NCBI GenBank assembly: GCA_030536515.1
Contig: JAUNPV010000012.1
Location: 1 to 64,000, forward strand
Length of the DNA stretch: 64,000 nucleotides
Direction of reading: 5' to 3'
DNA from: Eubacteriales bacterium
GTDB lineage: Bacteria; Bacillota; Clostridia; Oscillospirales; Oscillospiraceae
This document shows, one piece after another, positions 3,286 to 41,317 of the stretch. Below the pieces are notes generated by a model. The model saw nothing but the letters and a program-made list of their open reading frames with translations, had not been told where the DNA came from and did no database searches. Every line of letters begins with the position of its first letter. Positions within the stretch are counted from its first letter, which is position 1. The translations under genes were made by a program, and so were the position numbers.

Positions 3286-4731
3286 ATGATTACTTTCGTT
3301 CTCTGTGTCATCCTGCTGATCGTCGGCTACCTGACCTACGGCAAGTTTGTTGCCAAGGTCTTCGGACCCGATGACCGCCAGACCCCCGCCAATGCCATCA
3401 ACGACGGCGTTGACTACGTCCCCATGCCCACCTGGAAGGTGTTCCTGATTCAGCTGCTGAACATCGCCGGCACCGGCCCCATCCTGGGTGCTCTGGGCGG
3501 CGCCCTGTTCGGACCCATCGCCTACCTGTGGATTGTCTTCGGCTGTATCTTCGCCGGTTCTGTCCACGACTATATGTGCGGTATGCTGTCCATGCGTCAC
3601 AACGGTGCCTCCATCTCCGAGCTCACCGGTAAGTACCTGGGCAAGGGAATGCTGCAGGTCATGCGTGTGTTCTCCATCATCCTGCTGGTCATGTGCGGCG
3701 TTGTGTTCACCACCGGCCCTGCCGGCCTGCTGGCCATGCTGACCCCCGAGGTCCTGGATGCCACCTTCTGGCTGTGGGTCGTTATGATCTACTACGTCAT
3801 CGCCACCTTCGTGCCCATCGACAAGGTCATCGGCAGACTGTACCCCCTGTTCGGCATCTGCCTGATTATCATGGCTCTGGGCGTGTCCGGCTCCATGCTG
3901 TTCTCCGGCGACTATGTCATGCCTGAGCTGTGGGACCACTTCGGCAATATGCACCCCAAGGGTCAGCACGTCTGGTCCTTCATGTTCATCGCCATTGCCT
4001 GCGGCGCTATCTCCGGCTTCCATGCCACCCAGTCTCCCATGATGGCCCGCTGCTGCAAGACTGAGAAGGAAGGCCGCTTCGTGTTCTACGGCGCCATGAT
4101 TGCCGAGGGCATCATCGCCATGGTCTGGTGTGCTGCCGGCTGCTCCGTCTACCCCGTTATCAAGGACTCCCTGGAGGCCGGTGTCGCCATTGGCACCCCC
4201 ACCGTTGTTTACGCCATCTGCCAGTCCACCATGGGCAAGGTCGGCGGCGTCCTGGCTCTGCTGGGCGTTATCGTCTGCCCCATCTCCTCCGGTGATACTG
4301 CCTACCGCTCCGCCCGTCTGACTCTGGCCGACTGGTTTAAGATTGACCAGGCCGACTGGAAGAAGCGCCTGGCTCTGACCGTGCCCATCCTGGGCGTTGG
4401 CGCCATCATCTGCCAGCTGGATTACTCCATGGTTTGGCGTTACTTCTCCTGGTCCAACCAGACTCTGGCTATGATTGCCCTGTGGGCCGCCTCCGTGTAC
4501 ATGATTCAGCAGCACAAGAACTACTGGATTACCGTCATTCCCGCCACCTTCATGTCCGCCGTTTCCGCCACCTACTTCATGGCCGCCGGCGAGTGCATGG
4601 GTCTGCTGTGGAACGCCATCGGCTTCACCGGCTTCTACCCCGTGGCCGTGGTGGTTGGCATCGTCTTCGCTGCCGCTATGCTGGCTGTGTTCCTGAAGAC
4701 CACTGCCAAGTACAAGGTCGCTGCTCTTTAA
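3286..4731 (+). CDS. cstA: CstA-family transporter
   Basis: 481 residues starting at the ATG at 3286 with AGGAGGA eight bases before it. CstA-family carriers import peptides or pyruvate, classically during carbon limitation. The protein is hydrophobic throughout, with the family N-terminal block (GYLTYGKFVAKVFGPDD, NAINDGVDYVP), the GTGPILGALGGALFGP block and SGFHATQSPMMARC. It is the short clostridial form, lacking the long C-terminal region of the E. coli protein. Codon use is strongly biased (GTC, CTG, ATC), suggesting high expression. It is monocistronic, with a strong promoter and terminator. Confidence 0.9.
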   Translation: MITFVLCVILLIVGYLTYGKFVAKVFGPDDRQTPANAINDGVDYVPMPTWKVFLIQLLNIAGTGPILGALGGALFGPIAYLWIVFGCIFAGSVHDYMCGMLSMRHNGASISELTGKYLGKGMLQVMRVFSIILLVMCGVVFTTGPAGLLAMLTPEVLDATFWLWVVMIYYVIATFVPIDKVIGRLYPLFGICLIIMALGVSGSMLFSGDYVMPELWDHFGNMHPKGQHVWSFMFIAIACGAISGFHATQSPMMARCCKTEKEGRFVFYGAMIAEGIIAMVWCAAGCSVYPVIKDSLEAGVAIGTPTVVYAICQSTMGKVGGVLALLGVIVCPISSGDTAYRSARLTLADWFKIDQADWKKRLALTVPILGVGAIICQLDYSMVWRYFSWSNQTLAMIALWAASVYMIQQHKNYWITVIPATFMSAVSATYFMAAGECMGLLWNAIGFTGFYPVAVVVGIVFAAAMLAVFLKTTAKYKVAAL

Positions 4732-4740
4732 GCTCCATAA

Positions 4741-4772
4741 AAAAAGTCTCTCCTTCGGGAGAGACTTTTTTT
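4741..4772. terminator. Bidirectional terminator
   Basis: AGTCTCTCC/GGAGAGACT pair around a TTCG tetraloop, with an A-run on the left and a T-run on the right. It can serve cstA (plus) and the XRE gene ending at 4785 (minus). Confidence 0.9.
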
Positions 4773-4784
4773 GCCCTTTCGCTT

Positions 4785-5522
4785 CTATTGGTGCTTCCAG
4801 CCGGTGATGTACATGGGCACGAACAGGGCGGCCAGGGTGATGAATACCAGGAGCTTTTCCGCCCACACCGTCCACAGGCCCAGGGCCCCCAGGGCCAGCG
4901 TCAGCAGGGGCAGGGCCGGCAGAGCGGCGGCGGTGCCCAGGCGGGCGGCCTTCAGAATGTGGGGCCAGTTGCGGTTGGTGAAGCGGACCCCCGGCAGATT
5001 CATCCGCACCGGGCCGTCGGAAAAGGCTCCGATGGCGTTCCGGTCGTAGTACCCCGGCAGCCGCAGCTGGGCGAAAAAGGTGAAATAGGCCCCAAAGGCC
5101 GCTGTCACCGCCATGCAGGCGGCCAGGGACTCCGTCAGCAGCCCCTGCCGCCAATTGAGCCAGGCCAGGACCGCTCCCGCCGCCAGGGCCAGGCCGTAGC
5201 CCGGTTTCCAAAGGCTCCGCTCCTGCCAGGCCCGCTGTCCCTCGCCGCAGGAAATCACCGCCTGGACCAGGTCCTCCGCCTCCTCCGGGGTGATGCTCTT
5301 ATCCAGACGCTTCCCCCGCAGCAGCTCCGTCACCGTGACCCCCAGGGCCTCCGCCAGGGGCACCAGCAGGGCCGTGTCCGGAATGCTGACCCCGGTCTCC
5401 CATTTGCTCACCGCCTTGTCGGAAATTTGCAGCCGCTGGGCCAGCTCCCGCTGGGTCATGCCTTGCGCTTTCCGCAGAGCCGCCACGAATGCGCCGAATT
5501 GGGTTTTGTTCAGTTCATACAT
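4785..5522 (-). CDS. XRE-type HTH regulator with C-terminal membrane domain
   Basis: 245 residues from the ATG at 5522, chosen because GGAGG lies eight bases upstream. Residues about 5-60 are a Cro/C1-type helix-turn-helix (GMTQRELAQRLQISDKAVSKWE). The C-terminal half has about four hydrophobic segments (LALAAGAVLAWL, LAACMAVTAAFGAYF, ALPALPLLTLALGALGLW, LLVFITLAALFVPMYI). Such HTH-membrane fusions usually sense envelope conditions while bound to DNA; the signal and targets are not evident. Single-gene unit converging on cstA. Confidence 0.8.
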   Translation of the reverse strand: MYELNKTQFGAFVAALRKAQGMTQRELAQRLQISDKAVSKWETGVSIPDTALLVPLAEALGVTVTELLRGKRLDKSITPEEAEDLVQAVISCGEGQRAWQERSLWKPGYGLALAAGAVLAWLNWRQGLLTESLAACMAVTAAFGAYFTFFAQLRLPGYYDRNAIGAFSDGPVRMNLPGVRFTNRNWPHILKAARLGTAAALPALPLLTLALGALGLWTVWAEKLLVFITLAALFVPMYITGWKHQ

Positions 5523-5642
5523 TTTCATCGCCTCCATAGGCCTATCATACCGCCCCTGCCCGGTTTTGGCAACCGATTGTCGGTAGAATCGGCTCAATTG
5601 CCCCTTGAGTTTCAAAAATCCCGCCGTTCAACCTTCTCTTGA

Positions 5643-5671
5643 TTGCCAAATTCCCCCTCATGTGCTATGAT
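5643..5671 (+). promoter_or_regulatory. Promoter of XRE/helical-repeat gene
   Basis: TTGCCA (5643-5648), a 17-base spacer and TATGAT (5666-5671). Confidence 0.75.
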
Positions 5672-5717
5672 TTTGGCATACAGGAGGCCGGCTCCCGAAA
5701 AAATTGGAGGAATGACC

Positions 5718-6506
5718 ATGTTTGACAATATGAAAATCGCAAAGCGCATCCGGGAGGCCCGGATTGCCAAGAATCTGACCCAGATGAATCTGGCCGACGC
5801 CATGGGTGTCAGCTATCAGGCGGTGAGCAACTGGGAGCGGGGCAATTCCCTGCCGGATATTTCCAAGCTGGAGGACCTGTGCCGGGCCCTGGACCTGACC
5901 GTGGGGTCCCTGCTGGGCACGGAGGCTCCCGCCGTGGAGAAGGTGCTGGAGGCGGAGCCTCTTTCCATGGAGGAGCTGGCCGAGGCCGCCCCCATGCTGC
6001 CCCCCGCAGAGGTAAAGGCCCAGGTGGAGCAGGAGCGGAAGCGGAAAAAAATCGATTTAAGCGCCATTGCCGCCATTGCGCCATTTCTGGATGAGGCATA
6101 TCTGGACAGTCTTTTGCAGGAGGCGGAGCTTTCCAGCCTGGACTGCCTGGACGAGGTGGCCCCCTTCCTGAGCCGCAAGACCCTGGCCGCCCTGGTGGAG
6201 CGGGCGGACCCCAGCCAGCTGGCGCTGTTTGACGATGTGCTGTGCTTCCTGGGCCACGATGCCGTTGACCGTCTGATTCTTCGGTGTTTTGCATCCGGGA
6301 ATACCGATTTTATTGAGGAGGCCGCTCCCTTTGCCTCCAAAAACGGCCTGGACGCTCTTGTAGATGCCTGCATTGCTGCAAATAACACGGAATGCCTGGA
6401 GGACATCTACTGCTTCCTGGCCAAGGGTTCCGTGAAAAAGCTGGCCCAGCACCTGATGGAGAAAAAAGATATCGAAGCCCTAAGTGAAATTGGCCCCTAT
6501 CTGTAA
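5718..6506 (+). CDS. XRE regulator fused to ~28-residue helical repeats
   Basis: 262 residues from the ATG at 5718 (GGAGG seven bases upstream). Residues 6-65 are an XRE helix-turn-helix (LTQMNLADAMGVSYQAVSNWE). Residues 112-262 contain about five tandem repeats with a period of 27-28: each has an (I/V/A)APF-type or CF/PY motif (near 121, 148, 175, 203, 231, 259) followed by a short helix ending LxxLV. The repeats should stack as an all-alpha solenoid that could bind a ligand or partner. The stretch 100-111 is highly charged (EQERKRKK). I recognise no function beyond regulation. Confidence 0.8.
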   Translation: MFDNMKIAKRIREARIAKNLTQMNLADAMGVSYQAVSNWERGNSLPDISKLEDLCRALDLTVGSLLGTEAPAVEKVLEAEPLSMEELAEAAPMLPPAEVKAQVEQERKRKKIDLSAIAAIAPFLDEAYLDSLLQEAELSSLDCLDEVAPFLSRKTLAALVERADPSQLALFDDVLCFLGHDAVDRLILRCFASGNTDFIEEAAPFASKNGLDALVDACIAANNTECLEDIYCFLAKGSVKKLAQHLMEKKDIEALSEIGPYL

Positions 6507-6813: not shown

Positions 6814-7956
6814 TCAGGGCATGGGAATTTGCACGCCGTCGGGCATCTCAATGTGGTCCACCTGGTCCAGGGGGATGGGCTGCTTCGCCTCCAATTCCGC
6901 TGTGCCGCCCGAAGCGGAGCGGACATCCAGAGTGATGCGGCTGCCGTCCTTCAAGACTGCCTGGACAAATGCGCTGTTGGCATAATCGTTGAAATCCGGG
7001 CAGATGGTTTCGTCCTCGATGGTCACCACAGCCCCCAATGCGCTGAGTGCAAAGGAGCGGATTTGGACCTGCCCATATTCGTTCTGTCCATCCTTCCAGC
7101 CAACAATGGAGCGGGTCGCCACCGGCTGCTGAATCAGCTCCACCGTGCGCACATCGGCATCTGCAAAGTCCAGTTCAAAGTCCCAGGTTCCCTGGGCCAG
7201 GGTCACCACAGGATTCACCCGCTTTCCCTCCTCCTCGGTAAAGGAGAAGTTCTCCTGGCCCTTGTACTTGTCCTCCATCAGTTCGTTCATGTAGGCCTCA
7301 TTGTGATAGATGGCTTTCAAATTCTCCATGTGGAGCTTCCACACCCGGCCGGGGGCAAAGGGGATTTCCCCGGCCTGTGCGTCTGGCTTGAATGTCAGCA
7401 GCAGGTCCTGGGTGTTGTCCAGCCCATCGCCGTCCTCCAACGTGTCGATGCTGCTTCTGCCGACGAATCTTCTTCCCTCTGCATCGGTCAGGAAGCCCTC
7501 CATCCCCCAGTTGTCTAACAGGATAGCCGGGGCTGCCGGGTCATAGCCCTCAATCACCGTCTTGCTCAGAACAGCGTCGGCCGGTCCAGTGATGCCAATG
7601 ACGATGTGGGCGGTCCGGCCGTCGGTGATGGCGGACTTCACCCCCAGGGTGTAGCCGTCCCGGGTCTGGCTTTCGTTGATTTCCTGCTCGCTGCGGTCGA
7701 TGAACTCCACCTGCTCCGGGGTCAGGGGCGTGTCGCTCTGCTTCTCAAAAAAGCCCCGGAACCAGCCCAGCTCCGCTGCGCTGGCGGTGAGGGTCAGCAG
7801 GGAGACCATCGCCGCTGCAATCAGCACCTTGCCGATGACGCCGGTTGCCCGTCTTGTCCGTTTTGTATTGTTGTTTGCCATGTTCAGTACCCTCCTGTAG
7901 GTGTCCTGGGAGGCGGTCACTTTGGAAAAGGCCGCTTTATAATCTTCCTTAAACAT
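6814..7956 (-). CDS. DUF4179-type membrane protein, probable ECF anti-sigma factor
   Basis: 380 residues. The ATG at 7956 is preferred over the one at 7962 because GGAGG is then nine bases away. An N-terminal cytoplasmic tail of about 40 residues is followed by one membrane segment (VIGKVLIAAAMVSLLTLTASA, residues 40-60) and a long extracytoplasmic part with DUF4179-like features. The start lies inside the 3' end of the sigma gene (8-bp overlap), so the two are translationally coupled. This is the usual layout of sigma and its membrane anti-sigma partner. The stimulus is unknown. Confidence 0.75.
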   Translation of the reverse strand: MFKEDYKAAFSKVTASQDTYRRVLNMANNNTKRTRRATGVIGKVLIAAAMVSLLTLTASAAELGWFRGFFEKQSDTPLTPEQVEFIDRSEQEINESQTRDGYTLGVKSAITDGRTAHIVIGITGPADAVLSKTVIEGYDPAAPAILLDNWGMEGFLTDAEGRRFVGRSSIDTLEDGDGLDNTQDLLLTFKPDAQAGEIPFAPGRVWKLHMENLKAIYHNEAYMNELMEDKYKGQENFSFTEEEGKRVNPVVTLAQGTWDFELDFADADVRTVELIQQPVATRSIVGWKDGQNEYGQVQIRSFALSALGAVVTIEDETICPDFNDYANSAFVQAVLKDGSRITLDVRSASGGTAELEAKQPIPLDQVDHIEMPDGVQIPMP

Positions 7957-8431
7957 TTGCATCCACCTCCGTCAGTGTTTCTTTCAGCAATTCACGGCCC
8001 CGCCGCAACTGGGTACAGACCGTATTTTTCGGCACCTTCAAAATATCCGCAATCTCCTGGGTGGTGTAGTCCTCGTAGTAGTGCAGATACAGTGGCAGGC
8101 GGTAGTGCTTGGGCAGGTCCATCACCGCATAGAACAGGTCCGAGTGCCTGGCATCCTCAAAGGGGATGGTCGCCGCATAATCGTCGATGTTCTCCTCCCG
8201 CCGCCAGTGCTTTCTCGTCAGATTCTTGCATTCATTGATGGCCACCCGGATGAGCCAGCTGCGAACGTGCTCGTCGCTTTCAAAGCACTTTTTCTCCCCC
8301 AGCAGCTTGATAAATGCCTCCTGGGTTACATCCTCCGCATCCGCCGCCGATTTTAAGTAGTTCAGCGCCACCCGGTACACGGTATTGAGGTACCGCCGGA
8401 CATAGGCCGTAAATTGCTCGTTTGTCAGCAT
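7949..8431 (-). CDS. ECF-type RNA polymerase sigma factor
   Basis: 160 residues, typical ECF length. Region 2 spans about residues 8-75 (YLNTVYRVALNYLKSAADAE, DVTQEAFIKLL, VRSWLIRVAINECKN). Region 4 spans about 100-150 (LPKHYRLPLYLHYYEDYTTQ, EIADILKVPKNTVCTQL). It directs RNA polymerase to stress-type promoters and is probably held by the overlapping downstream membrane protein. AAGGAG precedes the ATG. A TATAAT on the minus strand (8465-8470) with no clear -35, and a GTGAAAAGCCTTTCAC palindrome beside it, suggest regulated expression. Confidence 0.9.
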   Translation of the reverse strand: MLTNEQFTAYVRRYLNTVYRVALNYLKSAADAEDVTQEAFIKLLGEKKCFESDEHVRSWLIRVAINECKNLTRKHWRREENIDDYAATIPFEDARHSDLFYAVMDLPKHYRLPLYLHYYEDYTTQEIADILKVPKNTVCTQLRRGRELLKETLTEVDANV

Positions 8432-8585
8432 ATGTTTGTTCTCCTTGTGAAAAGCCTTTCACCTATTATACAACTGAACCGGGGCATTTGCGTTCATCCT
8501 GGGAAAATTTTTTTGATTTTTCCCAAACCCTCTGCCAGGTCCGGCAGAGTTTACACTTTTCTAACACAACCTCCACAAATGGCTC

Positions 8586-8614
8586 TTGATTGTTGCCGGG
8601 GTTTGTTGTATAAT
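8586..8614 (+). promoter_or_regulatory. Promoter of the secreted C39/SleB gene
   Basis: TTGATT (8586-8591), 17-base spacer, TATAAT (8609-8614). Confidence 0.75.
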
Positions 8615-8700
8615 ATGGGCAGAGTTTACATAGCGCCAGGGTTGGCTTGCTCCCGCTGTGTTTCGGCACGGCGGATTTTTGATATCATGGAGACAATGGG

Positions 8701-10443
8701 ATGAATTTCAGAAAGATAACCTGTCTCGTTCTGGCCCTCTGCCTGAGTCTGAGCCTGTGGCCCATGACCGTCCGGGCCGAGGAGACCGTGCCGCAGACCG
8801 CTCCCACAACCGAATCTTCTCCCACCGGGGAGCCTGTCCCCGTGCCCACCGTTCCGGAGGAAACTACCGAGGCCACCGAGGCTACCGCTCCGGAGGAGAC
8901 CACGGAACCCACCGTCCCGGAGGATACCACCGAGGCCACCGTCCCGGAGGAGGACGACGCTCACCTGTCCCAGAGCTCCTCCATGGGCTTTGGTGCCGAG
9001 GCTGCGTCCATGCTGTTCCTGGACGTGCCCAAATACTACCAGGACGACTACCCGGACACCCCCTACGGCGACGGCACCGTGGCCACCAGCGGCTGCACCA
9101 TCACCTGCCTTGCCATGGCGGCCAGCTACCTCCAGGGCAGGCGGTACAGCGTCCCCCAGCTGGCAGCCCAGTTTCAGGATGCGGGCAGCGACAACATCCA
9201 GCGGATGGAGGCCGCCGCCGATGCCCTGGGCCTTGCCTACCGGAAGGCCTTCGACTGGGACGACGTTCTGGATGCTCTGGACGATGAGAAGCTGGTGATT
9301 CTCCTGCTGGATGGGTCCTCCCCCTTTACGGATGCCGACCACACCATCCTGCTCACCGGCTACGGCTCCACCGGCATTCTGGTCAACGACCCCAACCGGC
9401 GCAATTACGACAACCCCCAGCTGGAATACGGCTTTGAAAACGGCTTCCTGGACTCCACCGTGTCCGAGGGCTTCGCCGGGGGCTGGATTTTTGAGGACAC
9501 CGACACCGCCCGGCAGGCCCGGGATGCCAAGGCCCTCCAAAATGGGTCCGAAACCCACAAGCCCCTGTCCCTTTCCAGCGTTCCGCTGTACTTACAGACC
9601 GACTACCCCTACATCCGCTACGGCGACGGCTCCATCGCCACCAGCGGCTGCGCTCTGACCTGCGCCGCCATGGTGGCCAGCTACCTGCGCCAGGAGGAAA
9701 TTCTCCCCGACGAGCTGGTGCGGCGGTTCGGCACCTACGAATCCAGCCACATCCAGCGGATGGAGGCCGCCTCCACCGTGCTGGACCTGACCTACGAGCC
9801 GGTTCTCAGCTGGTGGGAGGTCCGGGAGGGCCTCCGGGCCGGGAAGGTGGCCATTGTGCTGCTGGAAAGCGACTCGGAGTTTACCAACATCCAGCACACC
9901 GTGGTGGTCACCGGCCTGACGGCGGACGGCAAGGTCCTGGTGAACGACCCCAACGGCCGGGCCTATGACGACCCGGACCTGAAGGACGGCTTCGCCCACG
10001 GCTTCCCGGAGGATATGCTCCAGGTGGGCTTCAGCGGCGGCTGGATTTACGATGCCTACACCCCGCCGGAGCCAAGGGAATCCCGGTATCCGGACTTCGC
10101 TCTGAGCCAGGAGGACCTGCACCTGATTGCCAGCACCATCTATCTGGAAGCCCGGGGCGAGTCCTTTGAGGGCCAGCAGGCCATTGCCGAGATTATCTTC
10201 AATCGCCTGGCCTCCGGGAACTTCTCCAAAACCGTCCAGGGCACCATCCTGGCCGAGGGCCAGTTCCGCACCGCCAAATTCCTGGACACCGCCCAGCCCG
10301 GCGAGCTGCAATACAAGGCCATCGAAAAGGCCCTGTCCGGCCCCAACGTCCTGCCGGAGGATGTCTACTTCTTCGGCCGCACCCCCGCCAACAAAAACAT
10401 CTGGGGCTATATCGGCCGCCACGTGTTCTGCCGGGCGTATTGA
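8701..10443 (+). CDS. Secreted protein: two C39-like peptidase domains plus SleB-type cell-wall hydrolase
   Basis: 580 residues. A signal peptide (1-26, ending TVRAEE) is followed by an acidic Pro/Thr/Glu-rich linker to about residue 90. Two homologous C39_2-type papain-fold domains follow: C132/H214/D230 (ATSGCTIT, ADHTILLTGY, LVNDPN) and C317/H399/D416 (ATSGCALT, IQHTVVVTG, LVNDPN), both with complete triads. Residues 470-580 match the SleB/Hydrolase_2 fold, with the catalytic Glu in IYLEARGE (E483) and QAIAEIIFNRL. SleB enzymes cleave cortex or cell-wall peptidoglycan. The combination suggests wall remodelling with peptide processing outside the cell. GGAGA lies seven bases before the start. 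Monocistronic. Confidence 0.88.
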   Translation: MNFRKITCLVLALCLSLSLWPMTVRAEETVPQTAPTTESSPTGEPVPVPTVPEETTEATEATAPEETTEPTVPEDTTEATVPEEDDAHLSQSSSMGFGAEAASMLFLDVPKYYQDDYPDTPYGDGTVATSGCTITCLAMAASYLQGRRYSVPQLAAQFQDAGSDNIQRMEAAADALGLAYRKAFDWDDVLDALDDEKLVILLLDGSSPFTDADHTILLTGYGSTGILVNDPNRRNYDNPQLEYGFENGFLDSTVSEGFAGGWIFEDTDTARQARDAKALQNGSETHKPLSLSSVPLYLQTDYPYIRYGDGSIATSGCALTCAAMVASYLRQEEILPDELVRRFGTYESSHIQRMEAASTVLDLTYEPVLSWWEVREGLRAGKVAIVLLESDSEFTNIQHTVVVTGLTADGKVLVNDPNGRAYDDPDLKDGFAHGFPEDMLQVGFSGGWIYDAYTPPEPRESRYPDFALSQEDLHLIASTIYLEARGESFEGQQAIAEIIFNRLASGNFSKTVQGTILAEGQFRTAKFLDTAQPGELQYKAIEKALSGPNVLPEDVYFFGRTPANKNIWGYIGRHVFCRAY

Positions 10444-32711: not shown

Positions 32712-33254
32712 TCACACGATATGGGTGCTGCCCCACTGGTTGGGGCCGTCGCTGGCGCCGCAGACCTGGACCAGGGCGACAATCCAGCCCACCAGGGGGA
32801 CCAGGACGATGAGGACCCACCAGCCGCTTCTGCCCGTGTCATGGAGCCTGCGGACATACAGGGCCAGGCCGGGAATCAGCGTTGCCAGCATCCAGATGGG
32901 CTGCGCCACAGGCAGCAGCGCGATGATGAGCGAGGCTGCCAAAAAGCTGAACAGGAACACATACCAATACTCACTGCGGCAGGACCGGGTGGAAAAATCG
33001 GCATAGTGGGTGAAGTACAGCCGAATGGCATCCAGGAACCCCACCGGCCGGGCAGCAGGCTGGGCCGGGGTGAAGCTCGCCCCCATCTGAACCGGGGGAA
33101 TGCCCGTCTGGACCGGGGGAATGTCCTGGGGGGCCGGGGTCACGTAGCTGTAGGACTGGTCGGGCTGGCTTCCGCCGCCGAGGGATACGCCGCACTCAGG
33201 GCAGACCTTCACCAGGTCAGAATACACCCTTTTGCACTGGGGACAGGTTTTCAT
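32712..33254 (-). CDS. Zinc-ribbon DUF805 membrane protein
   Basis: 180 residues. A zinc ribbon at the N terminus (MKTCPQCKRVYSDLVKVCPE plus CG) is followed by a Pro/Gln-rich linker and a DUF805 domain from about 75 (DFSTRSCRSEYWYVFLFSF, LATLIPGLALYVRRLHDTGR, SGWWVLIVLVPLVGWI). DUF805 proteins are small polytopic inner-membrane proteins of unknown role. It lies just past the palindromic element that separates it from the vWA gene. Confidence 0.85.
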   Translation of the reverse strand: MKTCPQCKRVYSDLVKVCPECGVSLGGGSQPDQSYSYVTPAPQDIPPVQTGIPPVQMGASFTPAQPAARPVGFLDAIRLYFTHYADFSTRSCRSEYWYVFLFSFLAASLIIALLPVAQPIWMLATLIPGLALYVRRLHDTGRSGWWVLIVLVPLVGWIVALVQVCGASDGPNQWGSTHIV

Positions 33255-33496: not shown

Positions 33497-34162
33497 TTAC
33501 AGCTCAATGCTGATGGATCTGGGGATGGGGTCCAGGTCTACGTTGGTCATGGTGGGGTTGGAATTGGAAATCACGCTCATGCTGCTGGACAGCCAGACGA
33601 AGGCCTCCTTGAAATTGGACTTGGTGGCCTTCAGCACCGGGCCGCAGCCGTCGTGGGTGTACTGCTTCAGCAGGGGGATGTTAGCCTCGCCGCCAATGCC
33701 CATGGGGAAGAAGGTCACCTTCTTCCGGTCCAGCGCATCGTGGAGCCGGTTCAGGGCGGCGGATTTGAACTCGTTGTCGTTGGGCTCGCCGTCGGTGAGC
33801 AGGAAAATCCAGGGCTTCCAGTAGGCAACCCCCAGGTCCTTGTAAACCTGCTTGCGCAGCTCAATGGCATCCAGGCCGGTGATGATGGCCTGGTTCATGC
33901 TGGTCCAGCCGTTGGCCGTCAGCTGGGGCGGCTGGAAGGAGGCGGCGGGGCAGAAGGGCACCACCTCCCTGACCTCGGAATCAAAGCTGATGACGCACAC
34001 GTCTGCACAGCCGCAGGCCTTGGAATCGGACTGCAGGGCGGCCCCGAACTCCCGCAGACCCTCGTTCAGCTCCACAATGGCATGGGGGTTCATGGAGCCG
34101 GAGGTGTCCACCAGAAGGACACAGGCAATGTGCTTTTCACCGCTGTTCATAATTTCAATCAT
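33497..34162 (-). CDS. Cytoplasmic vWA-domain protein (YegL/TerY type)
   Basis: 221 residues, one von Willebrand A domain. The MIDAS is complete: VDTSGSMN near residue 18, the Thr in NGWTSMNQAI and the Asp in FLLTDGEPND. No signal peptide, so it acts in the cytoplasm as a metal-dependent protein-binding module. It is third in the operon kinase - PP2C - vWA, the order and content of the E. coli YegI-YegK-YegL and Ter-linked phosphorylation triads. GGAGG precedes the ATG. Confidence 0.88.
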   Translation of the reverse strand: MIEIMNSGEKHIACVLLVDTSGSMNPHAIVELNEGLREFGAALQSDSKACGCADVCVISFDSEVREVVPFCPAASFQPPQLTANGWTSMNQAIITGLDAIELRKQVYKDLGVAYWKPWIFLLTDGEPNDNEFKSAALNRLHDALDRKKVTFFPMGIGGEANIPLLKQYTHDGCGPVLKATKSNFKEAFVWLSSSMSVISNSNPTMTNVDLDPIPRSISIEL

Positions 34163-34207
34163 GTTTTTTCCTCCGTTTCTTGTTTTCTTCTTTTATCGGA
34201 TTCCCGC

Positions 34208-35569
34208 TCATGCGGGTTCACCTTCTGTGGTTTCGGGGGGCTGGGTGGCCTCCGTCGGGTCGTCCTGCTCCTGCCGGAGCCTGTCCAGCTCCTCCTCCAG
34301 GGCCTGAATCCGGCTGTCCTTTTCCTCCAGCCGGGCCTCCAGGGCATCGATGAGGGTATCCAGGCCGTCTGTGTTCTGCCGGAGCTCGGAATAGGACTGG
34401 GCCAGCTCCTTATGCTCGGTGAGCAGTACGGTCCTGCCCAGGGTGATTCCCCCGCTGAAGGCCACCAGCACCACCAGGCCCGACAGAACGCCCTTCAGGA
34501 AGGATAGGGTTGCGGACCCCCGGTACAATGGGTAGTCCCAGGGCTCTACCGGCGCCTCCCTGGGCTTTTGGGCCGGGGGCGGCGGCGTAACCGCCTTGAC
34601 GGGCTGCTGGCCGTACAGGGCCTTCTGCCAGGTCTGGCGGAGGGCCTCCTCCTCTGCCCGCCAGGTATCCATGCTGAAATCCGGATGGACACCGTCCCGG
34701 ATGGCCTTGGGGTTAACCACCGCCACCATGGTTAAGTCGTCGGCCACCTGGCGGAGGTAGTCGGCGGTTTGCAGGAAGCGTCTGTATTCCTCCAGCGCCC
34801 GCTTGGGGGACCCGGGCTTTCGCTCGGCCAGGGTGTACATCGCCTTTTCCATAAAGGCGTAGCAGATGCCGTTAAAGTAGGCGCCGCTGCCGGAGGCCAC
34901 GAAGGAATCCAGCACCCCGTCGGTTGCCATGACGAAGCCCGCCACGTGAGGGGTCACGCCGAACTGCCAATACTGCTCGCCGCTTTGCAGGGGGAACACG
35001 CTGTTGGCCTCCTCGCCCTTGACCCGCTGGGTGGCCATTTCCACGGTGCCGTCGGGCTGCTGGGCCACAATGCCGTCGTCGCCCACGTGGCCGTAGAACA
35101 GGTAGTCCCCGTCGTAAATGGCCAGGGTCAGGGTGGACTGGAGGGCAAACACCGGCTGGGGCGGCCGCCCGCTGTCCGCCAGGTCCTCCACGGCCTGCCG
35201 GGCCGCCCGGAAGGCCTCCACCATAACCTTCTTCATGGCCCCCCGGAAGCCGGGGGTCTCGTCGCTCAGCTTCATGGCGGCCCCCTGGGACAGCGCCTCC
35301 AGGCCCTGCTGGGCGCTGTCCAGCGCCGTGCTGACCGCCGACCGGGCCCCAAAGTGGGACAGAGCGCAGCTGCCCACGCCGTCGGCAATGGCGGCAATCA
35401 GCAGCCCCTGGGCAGCCAGCCAGCGCATTCCATGGCAGTCCTGGCAGGGCACCGGCGGCTCCCGGCTGATATGGGATGCCCCCTGCAGGGTCAGGCCGAA
35501 GGCGGCAATCCCCTTCTGCTGGATGAGGGTCTGCCCCTGATTTTCCAGGGGTTCATTGAAAATATCCAT
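34208..35569 (-). CDS. PP2C-type Ser/Thr phosphatase with C-terminal membrane helix and coiled coil
   Basis: 453 residues. PP2C core at about 20-290 with metal-ligand aspartates in PCQDCHGM (D44), AIADGVGSCA (D63), MATDGVLDSF and RQVADDLTMVAV. A Pro-rich linker, one membrane helix (about 364-390, VLSGLVVLVAFSGGITLG) and a coiled coil (SELRQNTDGLDTLIDALEAR, ... IQALEEELDRLRQEQ) follow. The catalytic domain is cytoplasmic; the coiled coil would lie outside. It should reverse phosphorylation by the kinase encoded 35 bases upstream. Confidence 0.88.
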   Translation of the reverse strand: MDIFNEPLENQGQTLIQQKGIAAFGLTLQGASHISREPPVPCQDCHGMRWLAAQGLLIAAIADGVGSCALSHFGARSAVSTALDSAQQGLEALSQGAAMKLSDETPGFRGAMKKVMVEAFRAARQAVEDLADSGRPPQPVFALQSTLTLAIYDGDYLFYGHVGDDGIVAQQPDGTVEMATQRVKGEEANSVFPLQSGEQYWQFGVTPHVAGFVMATDGVLDSFVASGSGAYFNGICYAFMEKAMYTLAERKPGSPKRALEEYRRFLQTADYLRQVADDLTMVAVVNPKAIRDGVHPDFSMDTWRAEEEALRQTWQKALYGQQPVKAVTPPPPAQKPREAPVEPWDYPLYRGSATLSFLKGVLSGLVVLVAFSGGITLGRTVLLTEHKELAQSYSELRQNTDGLDTLIDALEARLEEKDSRIQALEEELDRLRQEQDDPTEATQPPETTEGEPA

Positions 35570-35603
35570 ATGTTACCTCCGAATTCTTCAATTGGAATAT
35601 GAC

Positions 35604-37718
35604 CTAATCATCGTACACCGCAATCCCATGTACCCAGGAGAAGTTGCCGCCGTTTTTGGGGACGATGCCAATGGCGTCGATGGTGGTGGGGCTGTCCAGG
35701 TAGATTACCTTGTCGGTGGTTGCCTCCCCGTTTGCGTCATAGCTTACCGTCAGGGTGTCAATCTGCCGCCAGCTACCGTTGCCGATTCTGGCGTAGACCC
35801 GCCACTCCTCGCAGCGGATGCTGCCGGTCATTTCCACGTAAAAGCCAACATGGACACTGGTGCGGTTGCGGATGGGTGAGTTCAGCATCCAGACGGAGGT
35901 GGACCAGTCGAGGACGTTGTGCGTCTCGTAGTAGCCGCTGAGGGCCTCGCCGCTGGGGGCCTGGGTGGCCTGCACCTGGGGCTGCTGGGCCTCCTGCCTT
36001 GAGGGCATCACGCCTGTCTGCACCACGTCGGTGATGTCGATTTCCTCACTCCAGGAGAGGCTTCCCTCCGTGTTGGGGTAGAAGGTGAGGGCTTCAATAT
36101 AAAGAGAGCCGTCCAGGGTGAAGGTTTTTCTGGCGGTTCCGCTGCTCGACAGCAGCATCGTTCCCAGCTCCTCCCAGCCGTTCTGGGTTCTGACATAGAC
36201 CGACCAATTCCTGCACGTTGCCCCGCCGTCAATTTCCGCCGAATAGTCAACGGTCATCGACAGGCAGCCCACAATGGGCTTGGAGAGCACATAAACGCTT
36301 GTCTCCCAGTCGCCCACAGTGTCCGGCTCCATGGTGCCGGTGACGTGTGCAATTTTGTTTTCATCGTACTGGGTCTGGGAGGACGGTGTTTTGTCCGGCT
36401 CATATTCAGATAGGGAATACATCAGCAGGGCAAAGGCTGCAAACAGCAGAAAAACCCAGAGGAACGGCTTCAGCCCGGAACCGGTATTGGGCCCGGAGCC
36501 GGAACTTGGCCCGGAGCCGGAGCTTGGCCCGGAACCGATACTTGGCCCGGAAACGGTGCTTGGCCCGGAGTTGGAGTGGGACGGGATAGAAATCTGAATC
36601 TTCTTTATGGACGAAAGGCCCTGGACGTATTTGTTATACCGCTCCTGCGCCGCGCACAGGCCGCATTTGCCCTGGCTGCTGATGTAAATGTGGGTGGCGT
36701 TTTGGGGGCACTGGACCCGCTGGGCCCCCGGCGCAAGCAGCTGCAAAAAGGCGGACAGGTCGTTGACCCACTGCTGGGCGGTGACCCGCTGGCGGGCCTT
36801 GGCCAGCACATTGGTTTCGTCATAGGTAAAGCTCCGGCAGAAGTCCCCCACCAGCTTTGGTGTGACCATTTCCACCAGATAGGGGGCCTGCACCGGGATG
36901 GTCATATTGGGGATATCCCGGACGAAGGGGCACCGGCCCTTCTGGATGTTTTCCAGCTGCTGGTTGACGGAGGAGTCCTGGTTCACCGCCAGGTTTTTCC
37001 CCGTAAAGGGGTGGAAGTTGTTCATCAGCAGCTGGAAAATGTGAATGGCCAGAGAGAAATTGTCGGATTCGGCGGTGAATCTGGACCGCTCGTCCCGCAG
37101 GTTCCGGCCCTGGAGCTCCGGGGCCAGGTACTCCTGGGTGCCGGCGGTGCATTTGAAGTGGTGGCCGGTTTGGGGGTCGGTGATGTCGAAGCTGTCGTTG
37201 TCCAGAATGATGACGCAGCACTTGGGCCCCACCAGGATGTTCTGGCTGTTCATATCGCCGATGATGTAGCCGTGGGCGTGGAGGTGGGCCACGGCTCTGG
37301 CCAGGTTGGTGGCGGCCACCACATTGTGGACCCGGGTGTACCGGGGGAACATGGCCTTGGACGCCGCACTGTCGCAGCCCCGGGCGATGTTGAAAATGCC
37401 CACGCCCTGCTCGATAAAGGGCATGATATAGCCCACGAAGGCCCCGGTGTCGTCGTAGAGGATATCCTGGGGCCAGGCCAGCTTCATGTATGGGTCGCCG
37501 TCGGCATCCTTCAGGTTGTCCACCGGGTGGTCCACCATGTAGGTGAGCTTCTGCTCAATATCGCCCACCACCTTTTTGTAGATTTTCGCCACCATCCACT
37601 GGCCGGGAATTTCGAACACACGGCCCTCGCCGCCGGCGCCGATTTCCCTGCCCAGGGTGTAGCTTTTGTTCTTCTTGCTTCGCAGGGTTGTGTTTACTCC
37701 AATCGTCATATCGGTCAT
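35604..37718 (-). CDS. Transmembrane Ser/Thr protein kinase (YegI type) with tandem extracellular domains
   Basis: 704 residues from the ATG at 37718; the ATG at 37709 is equally possible. Kinase domain at about 20-330: glycine loop GREIGAGGEGRVFE, Lys in WMVAKIYKK, catalytic loop GYIIGDMNSQNILV (D155, N160; HRD is replaced by IGD) and DND at 173-175 in place of DFG. A Cys cluster (QCPQNAT, GKCGLCAAQ), a Ser/Gly/Pro repeat linker (about 383-415) and one membrane helix (418-435) follow. The C terminus holds two homologous beta-rich units (about 458-566 and 595-704; TSVYVLSKPI / TSVWMLNSPI). First gene of the triad; it probably senses an external ligand. Confidence 0.88.
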   Translation of the reverse strand: MTDMTIGVNTTLRSKKNKSYTLGREIGAGGEGRVFEIPGQWMVAKIYKKVVGDIEQKLTYMVDHPVDNLKDADGDPYMKLAWPQDILYDDTGAFVGYIMPFIEQGVGIFNIARGCDSAASKAMFPRYTRVHNVVAATNLARAVAHLHAHGYIIGDMNSQNILVGPKCCVIILDNDSFDITDPQTGHHFKCTAGTQEYLAPELQGRNLRDERSRFTAESDNFSLAIHIFQLLMNNFHPFTGKNLAVNQDSSVNQQLENIQKGRCPFVRDIPNMTIPVQAPYLVEMVTPKLVGDFCRSFTYDETNVLAKARQRVTAQQWVNDLSAFLQLLAPGAQRVQCPQNATHIYISSQGKCGLCAAQERYNKYVQGLSSIKKIQISIPSHSNSGPSTVSGPSIGSGPSSGSGPSSGSGPNTGSGLKPFLWVFLLFAAFALLMYSLSEYEPDKTPSSQTQYDENKIAHVTGTMEPDTVGDWETSVYVLSKPIVGCLSMTVDYSAEIDGGATCRNWSVYVRTQNGWEELGTMLLSSSGTARKTFTLDGSLYIEALTFYPNTEGSLSWSEEIDITDVVQTGVMPSRQEAQQPQVQATQAPSGEALSGYYETHNVLDWSTSVWMLNSPIRNRTSVHVGFYVEMTGSIRCEEWRVYARIGNGSWRQIDTLTVSYDANGEATTDKVIYLDSPTTIDAIGIVPKNGGNFSWVHGIAVYDD

Positions 37719-37776
37719 CTTCCTTTCGTTTTGCTGGTCTGTTCTTTTTCTATTCACGAATCATTCACATCTTAAT

Positions 37777-37782
37777 TATACA
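37777..37782 (-). promoter_or_regulatory. -10 element of the kinase operon
   Basis: A minus-strand TATAAT (37777-37782) with no good -35 at the right spacing suggests activator dependence. The direct repeats at 37805-37837 lie just upstream. Confidence 0.5.
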
Positions 37783-37804
37783 AGAGATTTTCTCTTCCTG
37801 CCTG

Positions 37805-37837
37805 ACCAGTTTCGTCGAAAATCGAACCAGTTTCGTC
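37805..37837. promoter_or_regulatory. Direct-repeat operator, probable LytTR binding site
   Basis: Two identical 12-base repeats, ACCAGTTTCGTC, at 37805-37816 and 37826-37837, are spaced 21 bp start to start, about two helical turns. LytTR regulators bind pairs of roughly 9-bp repeats at a 21-bp period. The site lies between the kinase operon (minus) and the LytTR-kinase operon (plus). Confidence 0.75.
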
Positions 37838-37952: not shown

Positions 37953-38663
37953 GTGCTGGCACTGGCCATATGCGACGATAACCCTATCTTTTTGGAGGAG
38001 GTCCGGCAGCTTGTGACCGACCTGCCTCAGGTGCGCAGGACCGCCTGCTTTATTTCCCCGGAGGATATGATGCAGGCGCTGACCGAGGAGCGCTTCATCC
38101 CGGACCTGATTTTGATGGACCTGCAGTATGACGACCGCAAGACCGGCCTGGACTGGGCGGAGGAGCTGCGGCAGGTGGGGCCCAACATCGGGGTAATCTG
38201 CGTCACGGGCTACAATGACCGCTATGCCCAGCATATCCTGCTGCACAATTTCAATCTGGTGGGCTATCTCACCAAGCCGCTGGACCGGCAGCTGCTTTGC
38301 CGGTATCTGGACAAGGCGCTGGAAAAGCAGCAGAGCAGGGCCTACTTCCCCTTCATTCTCAAGGGCAAGGCCTACAGCATCGCAACGGACAGCATTTTGT
38401 TCATCGAAAGCAACAACCACACCGTAACCCTCTACACGGACGACGATATCTACACCTTTTACGACAAGCTCAGCATTCTCACCACCCGCCTGCCCGCCTC
38501 CTTTGCCCAGTGCCACAAGAGCTATCTGGTGAATCTGAACCACATCGTCCGGCTGGAGCCCCGGTGCGTGACCATGTCCTGCGGCCGGGCCATCCCGGTG
38601 AGCAAAGCCTTCTTTGCCCAGCTTCAGGAGGCATTCTTTTATCACATCGGTCAGGAATTCTGA
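37953..38663 (+). CDS. LytTR-family response regulator (AgrA-like)
   Basis: 236 residues from a GTG at 37953 (MLALAICDDNP), with GGAGG eleven bases upstream; no ATG fits. Receiver domain 1-120 (acidic pair in ICDDN, phospho-acceptor D56 in LILMDLQYDD, Lys in YLTKPLDR). LytTR DNA-binding domain about 133-235 (AYSIATDSILFIESNNHTVT, SFAQCHKSYLVNLNHIVRLE). It is followed after 21 bases by two histidine kinases, with which it should form a signalling unit. It probably binds the direct repeats at 37805-37837. Confidence 0.9.
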   Translation: MLALAICDDNPIFLEEVRQLVTDLPQVRRTACFISPEDMMQALTEERFIPDLILMDLQYDDRKTGLDWAEELRQVGPNIGVICVTGYNDRYAQHILLHNFNLVGYLTKPLDRQLLCRYLDKALEKQQSRAYFPFILKGKAYSIATDSILFIESNNHTVTLYTDDDIYTFYDKLSILTTRLPASFAQCHKSYLVNLNHIVRLEPRCVTMSCGRAIPVSKAFFAQLQEAFFYHIGQEF

Positions 38664-38684: not shown

Positions 38685-39989
38685 ATGGAGATTATTCGAA
38701 GACTCATCTGCACCTTTGTCTGGACCATGCAGGGGACCTTCTTTGGCGTGTGTCTGGAAAAGATGCTTCCCGTCAACGACGACGCCTGTTCCAGGGCGGG
38801 GCGCACCTGGCTGTGGAGCGGCTTTATGCTCGTCGTCGGGGCCATGCATTCCTTTGCCCTGCCGGGCCCCTGGCAGATGGTCAGCCTTGGGCTTCAGTGT
38901 GTGGTGGCTCCCCTTCTGCTGTACCGGTGCTATCAGGGCCGGTTTTTGACGCGGCTGGCCGCCTTTGTGTGCCTGTACGCCATTCCCATGGCGCTGGACG
39001 TTCTTTTTTCGCCGCTGATACTTGTCTTGATGGGCCGCAGTCCGGCGGAGCACTACGCCTCCATGGATAGCTCCTATGTGCTCAATGTCATCGCCCTTCA
39101 GCTCACCGCCTTCGCCCTCCAGGGCGTGGCGTGCACCATCTGGTGCCGCCGCCGGCAGGACAGCGCCTCTGCGCACCATACGCCCTATCTGCTGGGAATC
39201 GCCCTGGTGGGCATCTGCATTCTGTTTTCCTCGGTCTTCGGCGTGGACGATTCTGTCTCCGGCGGGCGGGAAATCTATATGGTCATGGTCACCAGTATCT
39301 TCTTCGTGGCCTGCGCCTCGGTGTTCGTTCTGGTGAATCAGGCGGAGAAGGAGACCCTCAGCAAGGCTCTGGCGGACACCCGCCGGGTCTCCGAGCTGGA
39401 GCGGGTGCACTATGGGGAGATTGAATCCCGCCGTGCGGAGCTGTCCGCCCTGCGCCAGAGCTACCGCCGGACCCTGGACACCGTGCTGACGTGCCTGGAA
39501 ACCGGCGATTTGGAGCAGGCGGAGGGGCTTCTGAACGAGCTGTCCGTCCGCATCGCCGCCACCCGGGAGTCCCCCTTCTGCTCCGTTCCCATCATCAACG
39601 CCATTCTCACGGAAAAGCAGCAGACCTGCCAGCAAAGCGGCATCGACCTGCGCTGCGACCTTCTGCTGCCGGACAGCCTGGAGGTTCAGAATCTGGACCT
39701 GTGCTCCGCCTTCAGCAACCTGATGGACAACGCCATCCGGGCCTGCAAAAAAGAGCCCCTGCCCCAGATTACCCTGTCCTGCCGGGTGGTCCAGGGGTAT
39801 CTGGTCATCAAATGCGCCAACCCCGCCGCCAAGGCCCCCGGCGCAAAGCCCGAGGGCACCGGCTACGGCCTGAAAATTCTGGCCGACATCGCCCGCCGCT
39901 ACCACGGGAACTTCTCCACCGAGTACAAAAACAAGACCTTCACCGCCCAGCTGAGCCTGCTGGCCGCCGAGAAAGGAGAGCAAGCATGA
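38685..39989 (+). CDS. AgrC-like sensor kinase lacking the phospho-acceptor histidine
   Basis: 434 residues. About six N-terminal membrane segments (1-220), a linker helix, and a GHKL ATPase domain with intact N box (SNLMDNAIRAC, N345/N349) and G box (EGTGYGLKI, 391-396). In the dimerisation helix the usual L(R/K)H(D/E)..N motif reads LRQSYRRTL: His is replaced by Gln (258), and the following acidic residue and Asn are also gone. It should bind ATP but cannot phosphorylate itself. Its stop overlaps the next kinase start (ATGA), so the two are made together. Confidence 0.88.
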   Translation: MEIIRRLICTFVWTMQGTFFGVCLEKMLPVNDDACSRAGRTWLWSGFMLVVGAMHSFALPGPWQMVSLGLQCVVAPLLLYRCYQGRFLTRLAAFVCLYAIPMALDVLFSPLILVLMGRSPAEHYASMDSSYVLNVIALQLTAFALQGVACTIWCRRRQDSASAHHTPYLLGIALVGICILFSSVFGVDDSVSGGREIYMVMVTSIFFVACASVFVLVNQAEKETLSKALADTRRVSELERVHYGEIESRRAELSALRQSYRRTLDTVLTCLETGDLEQAEGLLNELSVRIAATRESPFCSVPIINAILTEKQQTCQQSGIDLRCDLLLPDSLEVQNLDLCSAFSNLMDNAIRACKKEPLPQITLSCRVVQGYLVIKCANPAAKAPGAKPEGTGYGLKILADIARRYHGNFSTEYKNKTFTAQLSLLAAEKGEQA

Positions 39990-41263
39990 CCCTTGAAAAT
40001 GTTTACCGCCTGCTCTGCGCCCTGATGTGGATGATGGAGGGGCCGCTGATTATCCTGTTCCTGCGGGCCATGCTCGCCCCCAGCCCCAACACCCCGGGGC
40101 GGAAGGCGGTTCTGGGCTTTATGTGCCTTGCCCATATTGTCGGCTCCTTCATCCACTATTTTGTCCCGTCCCACTTTTTCATGGCGATTCAAAATATCGC
40201 CCTGGTGGCCAGCACCTTCTTTGCAGCCGTGTGGTGCTTCCAGGGGCGGCTGACCAAGAAGCTCTTTGCCGTTAGCCTCCTGATGGTAACGCCCGCCATT
40301 GCGGATATGGTCACGGCGGCCACCCATCTGCTCATGTACGGCTACGCCATCACCTTCGGCCCCACCGACCTGGATGTCCATGCGCTGCTCATCAGCACTG
40401 CCACACTGACCATGGGCATCGCCCTGCAGGGCCTTGTCTGCATTCTCTGGTGCCGGTTTATCAAGCAGAACCGGATTCTCAGCTACACAGTCTACCTGGG
40501 TGCCTTTCTGCTGCTGGGCATCAGCATGGTGGCCTCCTCCCTCTGGCCCAGCCAGGACAGCGGCACCATGTTTATCTTTGTTTATTTATGCGTGTTTCTG
40601 GCCCTGTGCTGCGGCATTTTCGTCCTGGTGAACCAGGTGGAAAAGGCCCAGATTCAAAACGAGCTGGAGGAGGTCCGCCGGCTGTCGGAGCTGGAGCGGG
40701 TCCATTACAAGGCCATGGAGACCCGCCAGGAGGAGCTTGCCAAAATTCGCCACGACTACAGCAACGTTCTGACCTCGGCCCTGCATCTGATGAAAAACGA
40801 CGACACCCCGGAGGCCGCCCAGCTGCTCACCCAGCTGACCCAGCGCATGGCCGAGCCGGAGGAAACCTGCTACTGCGCTCTGCCGGTGGTAAATGGAGTC
40901 CTGGCGGAAAAGCAGCGGCAGCTGGAAAAGGCGGGCATCGGCTTCCACGTGGAGCTCTCCCTGCCTGAGGGGCCGGGCCTGACGGAGCCCGACCTGTGCT
41001 CGGCGCTGTCTCACCTGGTTGACCTGGCCGCCGAGGCCTGCCGGCCGGAAACCGCCGTCAGCCTCACCTGCCGGGCGGTCCAGGGGTATCTGGTTATCAA
41101 GTGCAGCGCCCCCTCCCATCCGGGAAAATGGGACTCCACCGCCCGCCCCATTCTGGAGGGCATCGCCGGGCGCTTCCACGGAGATTTCTTCACGGAGTAC
41201 CGCAGCCAGACCTTCACCGCCCAGCTGAGCCTCCTCCTCCCCACCCCCACGGAGGCCCGGTAA
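39986..41263 (+). CDS. AgrC-like sensor protein retaining the histidine but lacking ATP-binding boxes
   Basis: 425 residues from the ATG at 39986. It is homologous along its length to the upstream kinase (shared SELERVHY, LTCRAVQGYLVIKC, FHGDFFTEYRSQTFTAQLSL). The dimerisation helix has a proper motif, LAKIRHDYSNVL, with His 256. The ATPase region is degenerate: the N box reads SHLVDLAAEAC without either Asn, and GxGxG is replaced by PGKWDSTARPI. It should accept a phosphate but not bind ATP. About six membrane segments precede it. It pairs logically with the upstream kinase. Confidence 0.88.
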   Translation: MTLENVYRLLCALMWMMEGPLIILFLRAMLAPSPNTPGRKAVLGFMCLAHIVGSFIHYFVPSHFFMAIQNIALVASTFFAAVWCFQGRLTKKLFAVSLLMVTPAIADMVTAATHLLMYGYAITFGPTDLDVHALLISTATLTMGIALQGLVCILWCRFIKQNRILSYTVYLGAFLLLGISMVASSLWPSQDSGTMFIFVYLCVFLALCCGIFVLVNQVEKAQIQNELEEVRRLSELERVHYKAMETRQEELAKIRHDYSNVLTSALHLMKNDDTPEAAQLLTQLTQRMAEPEETCYCALPVVNGVLAEKQRQLEKAGIGFHVELSLPEGPGLTEPDLCSALSHLVDLAAEACRPETAVSLTCRAVQGYLVIKCSAPSHPGKWDSTARPILEGIAGRFHGDFFTEYRSQTFTAQLSLLLPTPTEAR

Positions 41264-41275
41264 AACGTTAAAAAA

Positions 41276-41317
41276 AGCCAAAGGCTTCCGGGCAAAAATG
41301 CCCGGAAGCCTTTGGCT
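41276..41317 (+). terminator. Terminator of the LytTR operon
   Basis: An 18-bp perfect stem (41276-41293 with 41300-41317) and a 6-base loop, preceded by an A-run. It lies 12 bases past the stop. Confidence 0.85.

Follow-up and report, generated by a model that had tools for sequence, protein, structure and literature searches.

The locus under study occupies the middle of the window (the whole 64,000-nucleotide stretch of DNA analysed) and consists of a response regulator gene that precedes two histidine kinase genes, the position behind a single LytTR regulator that the preliminary description had given to the kinases. The regulator (37953..38663, + strand) combines a receiver and a LytTR DNA-binding domain (Pfam Response_reg, 53 bits; LytTR, 76 bits). 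Its open reading frame begins at ATG 37896, with an alternative start at GTG 37953 that has GGAGG upstream, and the starts of homologues together with the sequence make GTG 37953 the likelier start. The first kinase, HK-A (38685..39989, +; 434 aa), and the second, HK-B (39986..41263, +; 425 aa), are both open throughout and share the ATGA at 39986-39989, which is the 4-bp overlap reported previously. Each has an N-terminal sensor part that is hydrophobic by eye, a DHp part and an ATPase domain, and an 18-bp perfect inverted repeat 3' of HK-B (41276..41317) reads as a probable terminator.

The two kinases are homologous along their length, as had been claimed (36% identity over residues 2-427), HK-B being the best other match to HK-A within their genome, and the complementary defects ascribed to them are present in full. 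HK-A carries LSALRQSYRRT, with Gln258 (codon CAG, 39456..39458, +; register by hmmalign) in place of the phospho-acceptor His, and retains both ATP-binding boxes (NLMDNAIRAC and GTGYGLKIL) in a normal GHKL ATPase domain (Pfam HATPase_c_5, 51 bits). HK-B keeps the His motif (LAKIRHDYSNV, with the phospho-acceptor His256 of HDYSN encoded at 40751..40753, +); its N box (HLVDLAAEAC, of which HLVDLAAEA spans 41012..41038, +) has lost both Asn and kept the Asp, the glycines of its G box are gone (WDSTARPIL, 41129..41155, +), and a Pfam search of its ATPase domain returned no ATPase match at E ≤ 10. Neither HK-A nor HK-B unites intact H, N and G boxes in a single chain, and, as judged from sequence, the ATP-binding and phospho-acceptor functions fall on two proteins, as in a split histidine kinase. 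A functional His elsewhere in the first helix of HK-A had been named as a finding that would overturn this reading; the only His in the DHp part is His242. His242 was itself considered as the acceptor and rejected, seven of the nine complete kinases compared having it besides the true His. Nor is any alternative His common to all the catalytic subunits described below, the DHp of one of them (BH47_CA) being without any His. Two further matches to HK-A in the same genome, on contigs C43 and C13, are both complete AgrC-like kinases with His and ATP boxes.

The pattern of loss in HK-B was scored over 35 invariant columns of the ATPase domain, defined from seven kinases (six catalytic subunits and a complete relative from genome G963). 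HK-B retains three of 12 invariant ATP-box columns vs 18 of 23 invariant columns elsewhere in the domain (Fisher p 0.004), while 17 control rows, all complete or catalytic kinases, retain between 8 and 12 of their 12 or 13 box columns, each control that belonged to the column-defining set having been removed from it before its own scoring. Distant controls keep 12 to 18 of the 23 non-box columns, so that in these controls drift affects the whole domain, whereas the loss in HK-B lies mainly at the ATP site; the catalytic subunit of G580 retains nine of 12 box columns and 18 of 23 others. By this measure of sequence conservation, HK-B lost its ATP site selectively.

A search for conserved adjacent pairs with the same split, which the preliminary description had proposed, found the complementary arrangement at at least eight loci in seven genomes, source locus included: the window, G001, G005, G1452 (locus L071), G1453 (L073), G1454 twice (L075 and L180) and G580 (L155). 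An alignment of three His-less kinases picked out 23 loci when run against 84,980 named species genomes, and more came from further draws on relatives (99 genomes), the genus (136), the order (394), the class (391), another family (200), a small order (3), the phylum (398) and the family of the L071 genome (353); the draws overlap and cut-offs differ between searches. The tally of eight is a minimum, as no more than 30 matches from each of the order and class searches were carried through to loci and later searches applied stricter cut-offs. Five of the seven split-bearing genomes are recorded as metagenome assemblies or bins. Among the 136 genomes of the genus search, the split occurs in at least three (G000, G001, G005) by the best matches examined, and looks rare and patchy within that set. 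Spread by plasmids was considered and rejected (four plasmid records only, with weak and partial matches), and viral contigs gave one weak match.

Gene order varies among these loci. The regulator is followed by the catalytic and then the His-bearing gene in the window and G580, by the His-bearing and then the catalytic gene in L075, by two His-bearing genes and a catalytic one in G001, and by four His-bearing genes and one catalytic gene in L071 (a Lachnospiraceae assembly); the order is catalytic, regulator, His-bearing in G005, L073 and L180. Neighbouring genes overlap by ATGA, as in translational coupling. All eight His-less catalytic subunits have a His-bearing partner at the same locus that is ATPase-less or ATPase-dead, and conversely eight of the nine loci with such a His-bearing gene also encode a His-less catalytic one. 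Where the eight catalytic subunits should have the acceptor His they carry Gln, Gln, Ser, Arg, Gly, Arg, Cys and Arg, and every one of them has also lost the Asn four residues further on; Pfam HATPase_c_5 was found in all six of the eight that were scanned. The His-bearing proteins at the seven loci outside the window end just past the DHp helices (about 280-330 aa from likely starts; that of L075 ends after the first DHp helix), and, having no ATPase domain whatever, these partners are unable to act alone. The window alone still has an ATPase domain, a dead one, attached to its His-bearing subunit.

Within 700 nt downstream of the truncated genes, in the three same-strand frames, no match to an ATPase remnant scored above zero for 12 of 13, and the match found for the thirteenth is the next gene, its catalytic partner. 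With no remnant in these frames, frameshift or assembly error was rejected as the cause, and the truncations look real by this reading of the flanking sequence. Across the loci 155 distinct kinase ORFs were scored, of which seven touch an edge; of the remaining 148, 122 have the His and N box (the G box was not detected in 14 of these) and nine were scored as lacking the His while keeping intact N and G boxes. The split loci account for eight of these nine; the other (L089) seems to be an alignment slip, its HD lying three columns further on. Because similarity to the split kinases was what brought the loci in, and 14 of them served to train the model, these counts are not kinase-wide frequencies.

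Some loci depart from the pattern. In G213, two His-bearing truncated genes accompany a regulator spread over two frames, and a catalytic partner was looked for at the locus and none was found; in G001 a stop interrupts the second His-bearing gene after three codons. At L082, in a Candidatus Fimimorpha faecalis assembly, an AgrC-like kinase (3734-5020) lacks the His, N box and G box, and the neighbouring kinase (5066-6268) keeps the His and N box as far as the contig runs. A kinase without the His and both ATP boxes beside one that keeps them means that degeneracy need not be complementary, and by its sequence the L082 protein is a pseudokinase partner of another type.

Trees were used to examine the relationships among these kinases. 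In a tree of the sensor and DHp parts (26 of 32 rows, without six that were too short or too distant), HK-A groups with HK-B as its sister (98/96), the L071 catalytic subunit groups with its four partners (100/100), and three G001 genes group with two of G213 (100/99). For G005, G1453 and L180 the same tree instead places the catalytic subunits in one clade (99/98) and the His-bearing ones in another (91/88), and these three, on this topology, share an older split. A single origin of the His-less state was rejected on both trees examined: a single clade of catalytic subunits has p-AU 1.7e-49 on the sensor and DHp tree and p-AU 0.0009 on a cytoplasmic tree, which was built from 19 rows after removal of the trait columns and has 9 of 16 forks open and long branches flagged. 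Because both halves of a locus fall together on the trees in several cases, the split probably arose more than once. Gene conversion of gene parts within loci could be the alternative to several origins. The four His-bearing genes of L071 have dN of 0.13-0.43 in the sensor vs 0.06-0.08 in the DHp part, and synonymous differences are also lower in the DHp part for five of six pairs, so that conversion probably contributed there.

The close relative in G963, situated at a contig edge, has the His together with all boxes, which suggests that the ancestor was complete. Relatives also have complete kinases in tandem arrays (G508, G243, G1578), and kinase pairs in G227 and G061 retain the His and N box, the G box of G227 being odd. 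In the array of G1578 (L190), from the family of the L071 genome, one LytTR regulator sits among five AgrC-like kinases, each of which has the His, N and G boxes. Given these complete relatives, HK-A and HK-B are most likely duplicates of a complete AgrC-like kinase, and the order of events would be duplication, then splitting.

A putative output of the system lies on the other side of the regulator, where a 12-base direct repeat, GACGAAACTGG, occurs twice with a period of 21 bp (37806..37837, - strand) between the regulator and a divergent protein kinase gene, 25 bp upstream of TATAAT (37775-37780); it is the probable binding site of the regulator. None of 100 shuffles reached two copies of the repeat, the pattern being derived from the repeat itself, and a relaxed pattern has three matches in the genome and none in a backward control. 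All three copies read GACGAAAYTGG-N10-GACGAAAYTGG on the promoter strand, followed after exactly 25 bp by TATAAT or TACAAT (window 37775-37837, minus; C11:7810-7838; C17:142928-142956), and may form a small regulon. A LytTR activator would be expected to have its sites laid out in this way. Of the two copies elsewhere in the genome, that on C11 faces the gene for a 361-aa protein (L069 3961-5046) with no Pfam match at E ≤ 0.01, and that on C17 faces a 70-aa ORF (L070 2872-2660, minus) resembling a small membrane protein.

The window copy faces, all on the minus strand, genes for the protein kinase (35604..37757), a PP2C (34208-35569), a vWA protein (33497-34162) and a zinc-ribbon/DUF805 protein (32712-33254), identified by Pfam and, from gene order, probably one operon. 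The kinase, PP2C and vWA row (33497-37757, minus) resembles the TerY-P triad. From the promoter layout, the regulator probably acts on the divergent kinase/PP2C/vWA operon, and would control it, zinc-ribbon gene included, by binding the GACGAAAYTGG repeats. A loose scan (≤5 mismatches of 22) over 11 loci, two of them stretches of the same genome, placed sites near genes of G001, G005, L071 (twice), L073 and G213, gave three matches at senseless places (L150 12438; L180 7527 and 11906) and found no site in L075, L155 or L181. At L071 one copy with one mismatch and N25-TATAAT lies past the catalytic gene, and a weaker copy ahead of the regulator. Directly past the split array, behind the one-mismatch copy, is a 760-aa ORF (7346-9628) with a signal-peptide-like start and PATGDT near its end. 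The weaker copies in G001 and G005 adjoin zinc-ribbon genes, which are also found downstream of the G213 locus. In four genomes, proteins that start with a zinc ribbon (MFCxNCG or similar) are encoded next to split kinases or within the probable target operon (L035 7170-7934; L036 1541-2636; L150 4625-6271; window 32712-33254).

We consider it probable that a single membrane sensor kinase, split and heteromeric, is encoded at the locus together with its LytTR regulator. HK-A and HK-B would pair through their DHp helices, the ATPase domain of HK-A would phosphorylate His256 of HK-B in trans, and HK-B would pass the phosphate to the regulator and, with its HDxxN motif kept, probably also dephosphorylate it. 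AgrC itself can reportedly phosphorylate in trans in mixed dimers. Homodimers of HK-A or of HK-B would be silent, so that output would require both receptors. The division of labour first proposed for a single pair gains from the complementary loss at eight loci; its one-to-one form does not hold throughout, gene stoichiometry reaching four to one at L071, and in some relatives one catalytic receptor may be common to several His-bearing receptors. We lean, with less assurance, towards a repeatedly evolved class of split receptors in Clostridia, in which one acceptor-less catalytic receptor serves one or several acceptor-only homologues and one regulator reads combinations of receptors, an arrangement we liken to animal receptor tyrosine kinases with pseudokinase partners.

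HK-B and its kind could instead be Spo0B-like phosphotransfer proteins, fed by another phosphorylated regulator or a distant kinase, with HK-A acting elsewhere. Spo0B combines a His-bearing DHp with an ATPase-like domain that binds no ATP, which is also the layout of HK-B, whose ATPase domain is non-functional by sequence and whose truncated homologues lack the domain. The His-bearing subunits have at most a weak Pfam SPOB_a match (below cut-off in three subunits of G001 and G005), and the complete kinases on C43 and C13 could be such a distant source. To our knowledge, however, Spo0B is soluble, with no membrane sensor and no His-less partner, whereas the His-bearing subunits keep a long hydrophobic sensor part (in HK-B about 220 residues ahead of the DHp, hydrophobic by eye, with an AgrC match from residue 60). 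Spo0B-like action would also leave the His-less kinases with intact ATPase boxes without purpose at eight of nine such loci, and one regulator gene was found per locus; we regard it as unlikely.

Decay of a duplicate pair, in which different parts were lost by chance, we judge distinctly unlikely, although it would suit the state of the G213 locus, the early stop in G001 and the complete arrays of relatives. Such complete tandem kinases were to count as a sign of recent decay and do exist, but the recurrence of complementary parts at eight loci is not one recent decay, and the frames are open, the starts overlap and the loss in HK-B is concentrated on the ATP site. Very unlikely is a regulatory pseudokinase that tunes the activity or ligand response of its partner with no phosphate exchanged, as might be suggested by the pseudo-histidine kinase DivL (PMC9430884), by RetS acting on GacS (PMC12189002) and by the L082 pair, since neither partner is complete in the split loci and no active kinase is left for tuning.

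If the split-kinase reading is true, the dead domain still attached in the window and the several apparent origins offer a route to why kinases split and in what order parts are lost. Histidine kinases are usually regarded as homodimers, and a sensor heteromeric by construction would have built-in AND logic and allow several receptors to share one catalytic subunit. The split loci would also supply natural versions of a His-mutant/Asn-mutant pair for trans phosphorylation: in another kinase family such mutants were mixed, and only the wild type and the mixture were active (PMC12148442), and HK-A/HK-B would, by analogy, be the natural counterpart of that pair. The ultrasensitivity and bistability predicted as possible for bifunctional split kinases (PMC3591291) could be tested in this system.

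That the pair may be undescribed stands in part. Split kinases as a kind are known (PMC3591291, PMC7656254), and 3.66% of HisKA proteins in SMART have no ATPase domain (PMC3591291); no split AgrC-like or LytTR-linked receptor pair appeared in the titles and abstract openings of the matches listed from mainly open-access literature. What seems new, as far as such titles and openings can suggest, is that such a split recurs among membrane receptors homologous to each other, at some loci with more than one receptor to a catalytic subunit.

Among known systems, AgrC of Staphylococcus aureus, which also has a LytTR-type regulator, is a single complete kinase acting as a dimer (PMC6755735). Outside the ATPase domain, residues 60-276 of HK-B match the NCBI AgrC model at E 3.6e-9, with 36 bits where the cut-off is 500; HK-A has no match to it at E ≤ 0.01, and its sensor and DHp parts are linked to AgrC only via HK-B. 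A profile of the catalytic subunits matched a single solved structure, the AgrC kinase module of S. aureus (6e52, E 0.0023). With the adjacent LytTR regulator and GHKL ATPase domain, which are AgrC-like (HPK10) traits, HK-A and HK-B appear to be distant AgrC-like receptors, the kinship of their sensor parts being not firmly settled. Synechocystis Hik36/Hik43 is likewise one kinase over two genes, forming a system with one regulator by two-hybrid assay (PMC7656254), but it is a CheA homologue split in two genes and not a tandem receptor duplication. Rhodobacter sphaeroides CheA3/CheA4 is a split kinase in which neither protein autophosphorylates alone and the mixture does (PMC3591291); ATP binding and phospho-acceptor lie on separate proteins there, as they do by sequence in HK-A/HK-B. 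CheA3/CheA4, as that source describes them, have chemotaxis CheA domains (P1, P3-P5) and belong to a cytoplasmic cluster, whereas no CheA domain was found in the split subunits scanned with Pfam (E ≤ 10 for the window pair, E ≤ 0.01 for the others), and HK-A and HK-B are homologous, predicted membrane receptors with an AgrC-like DHp and a LytTR regulator.
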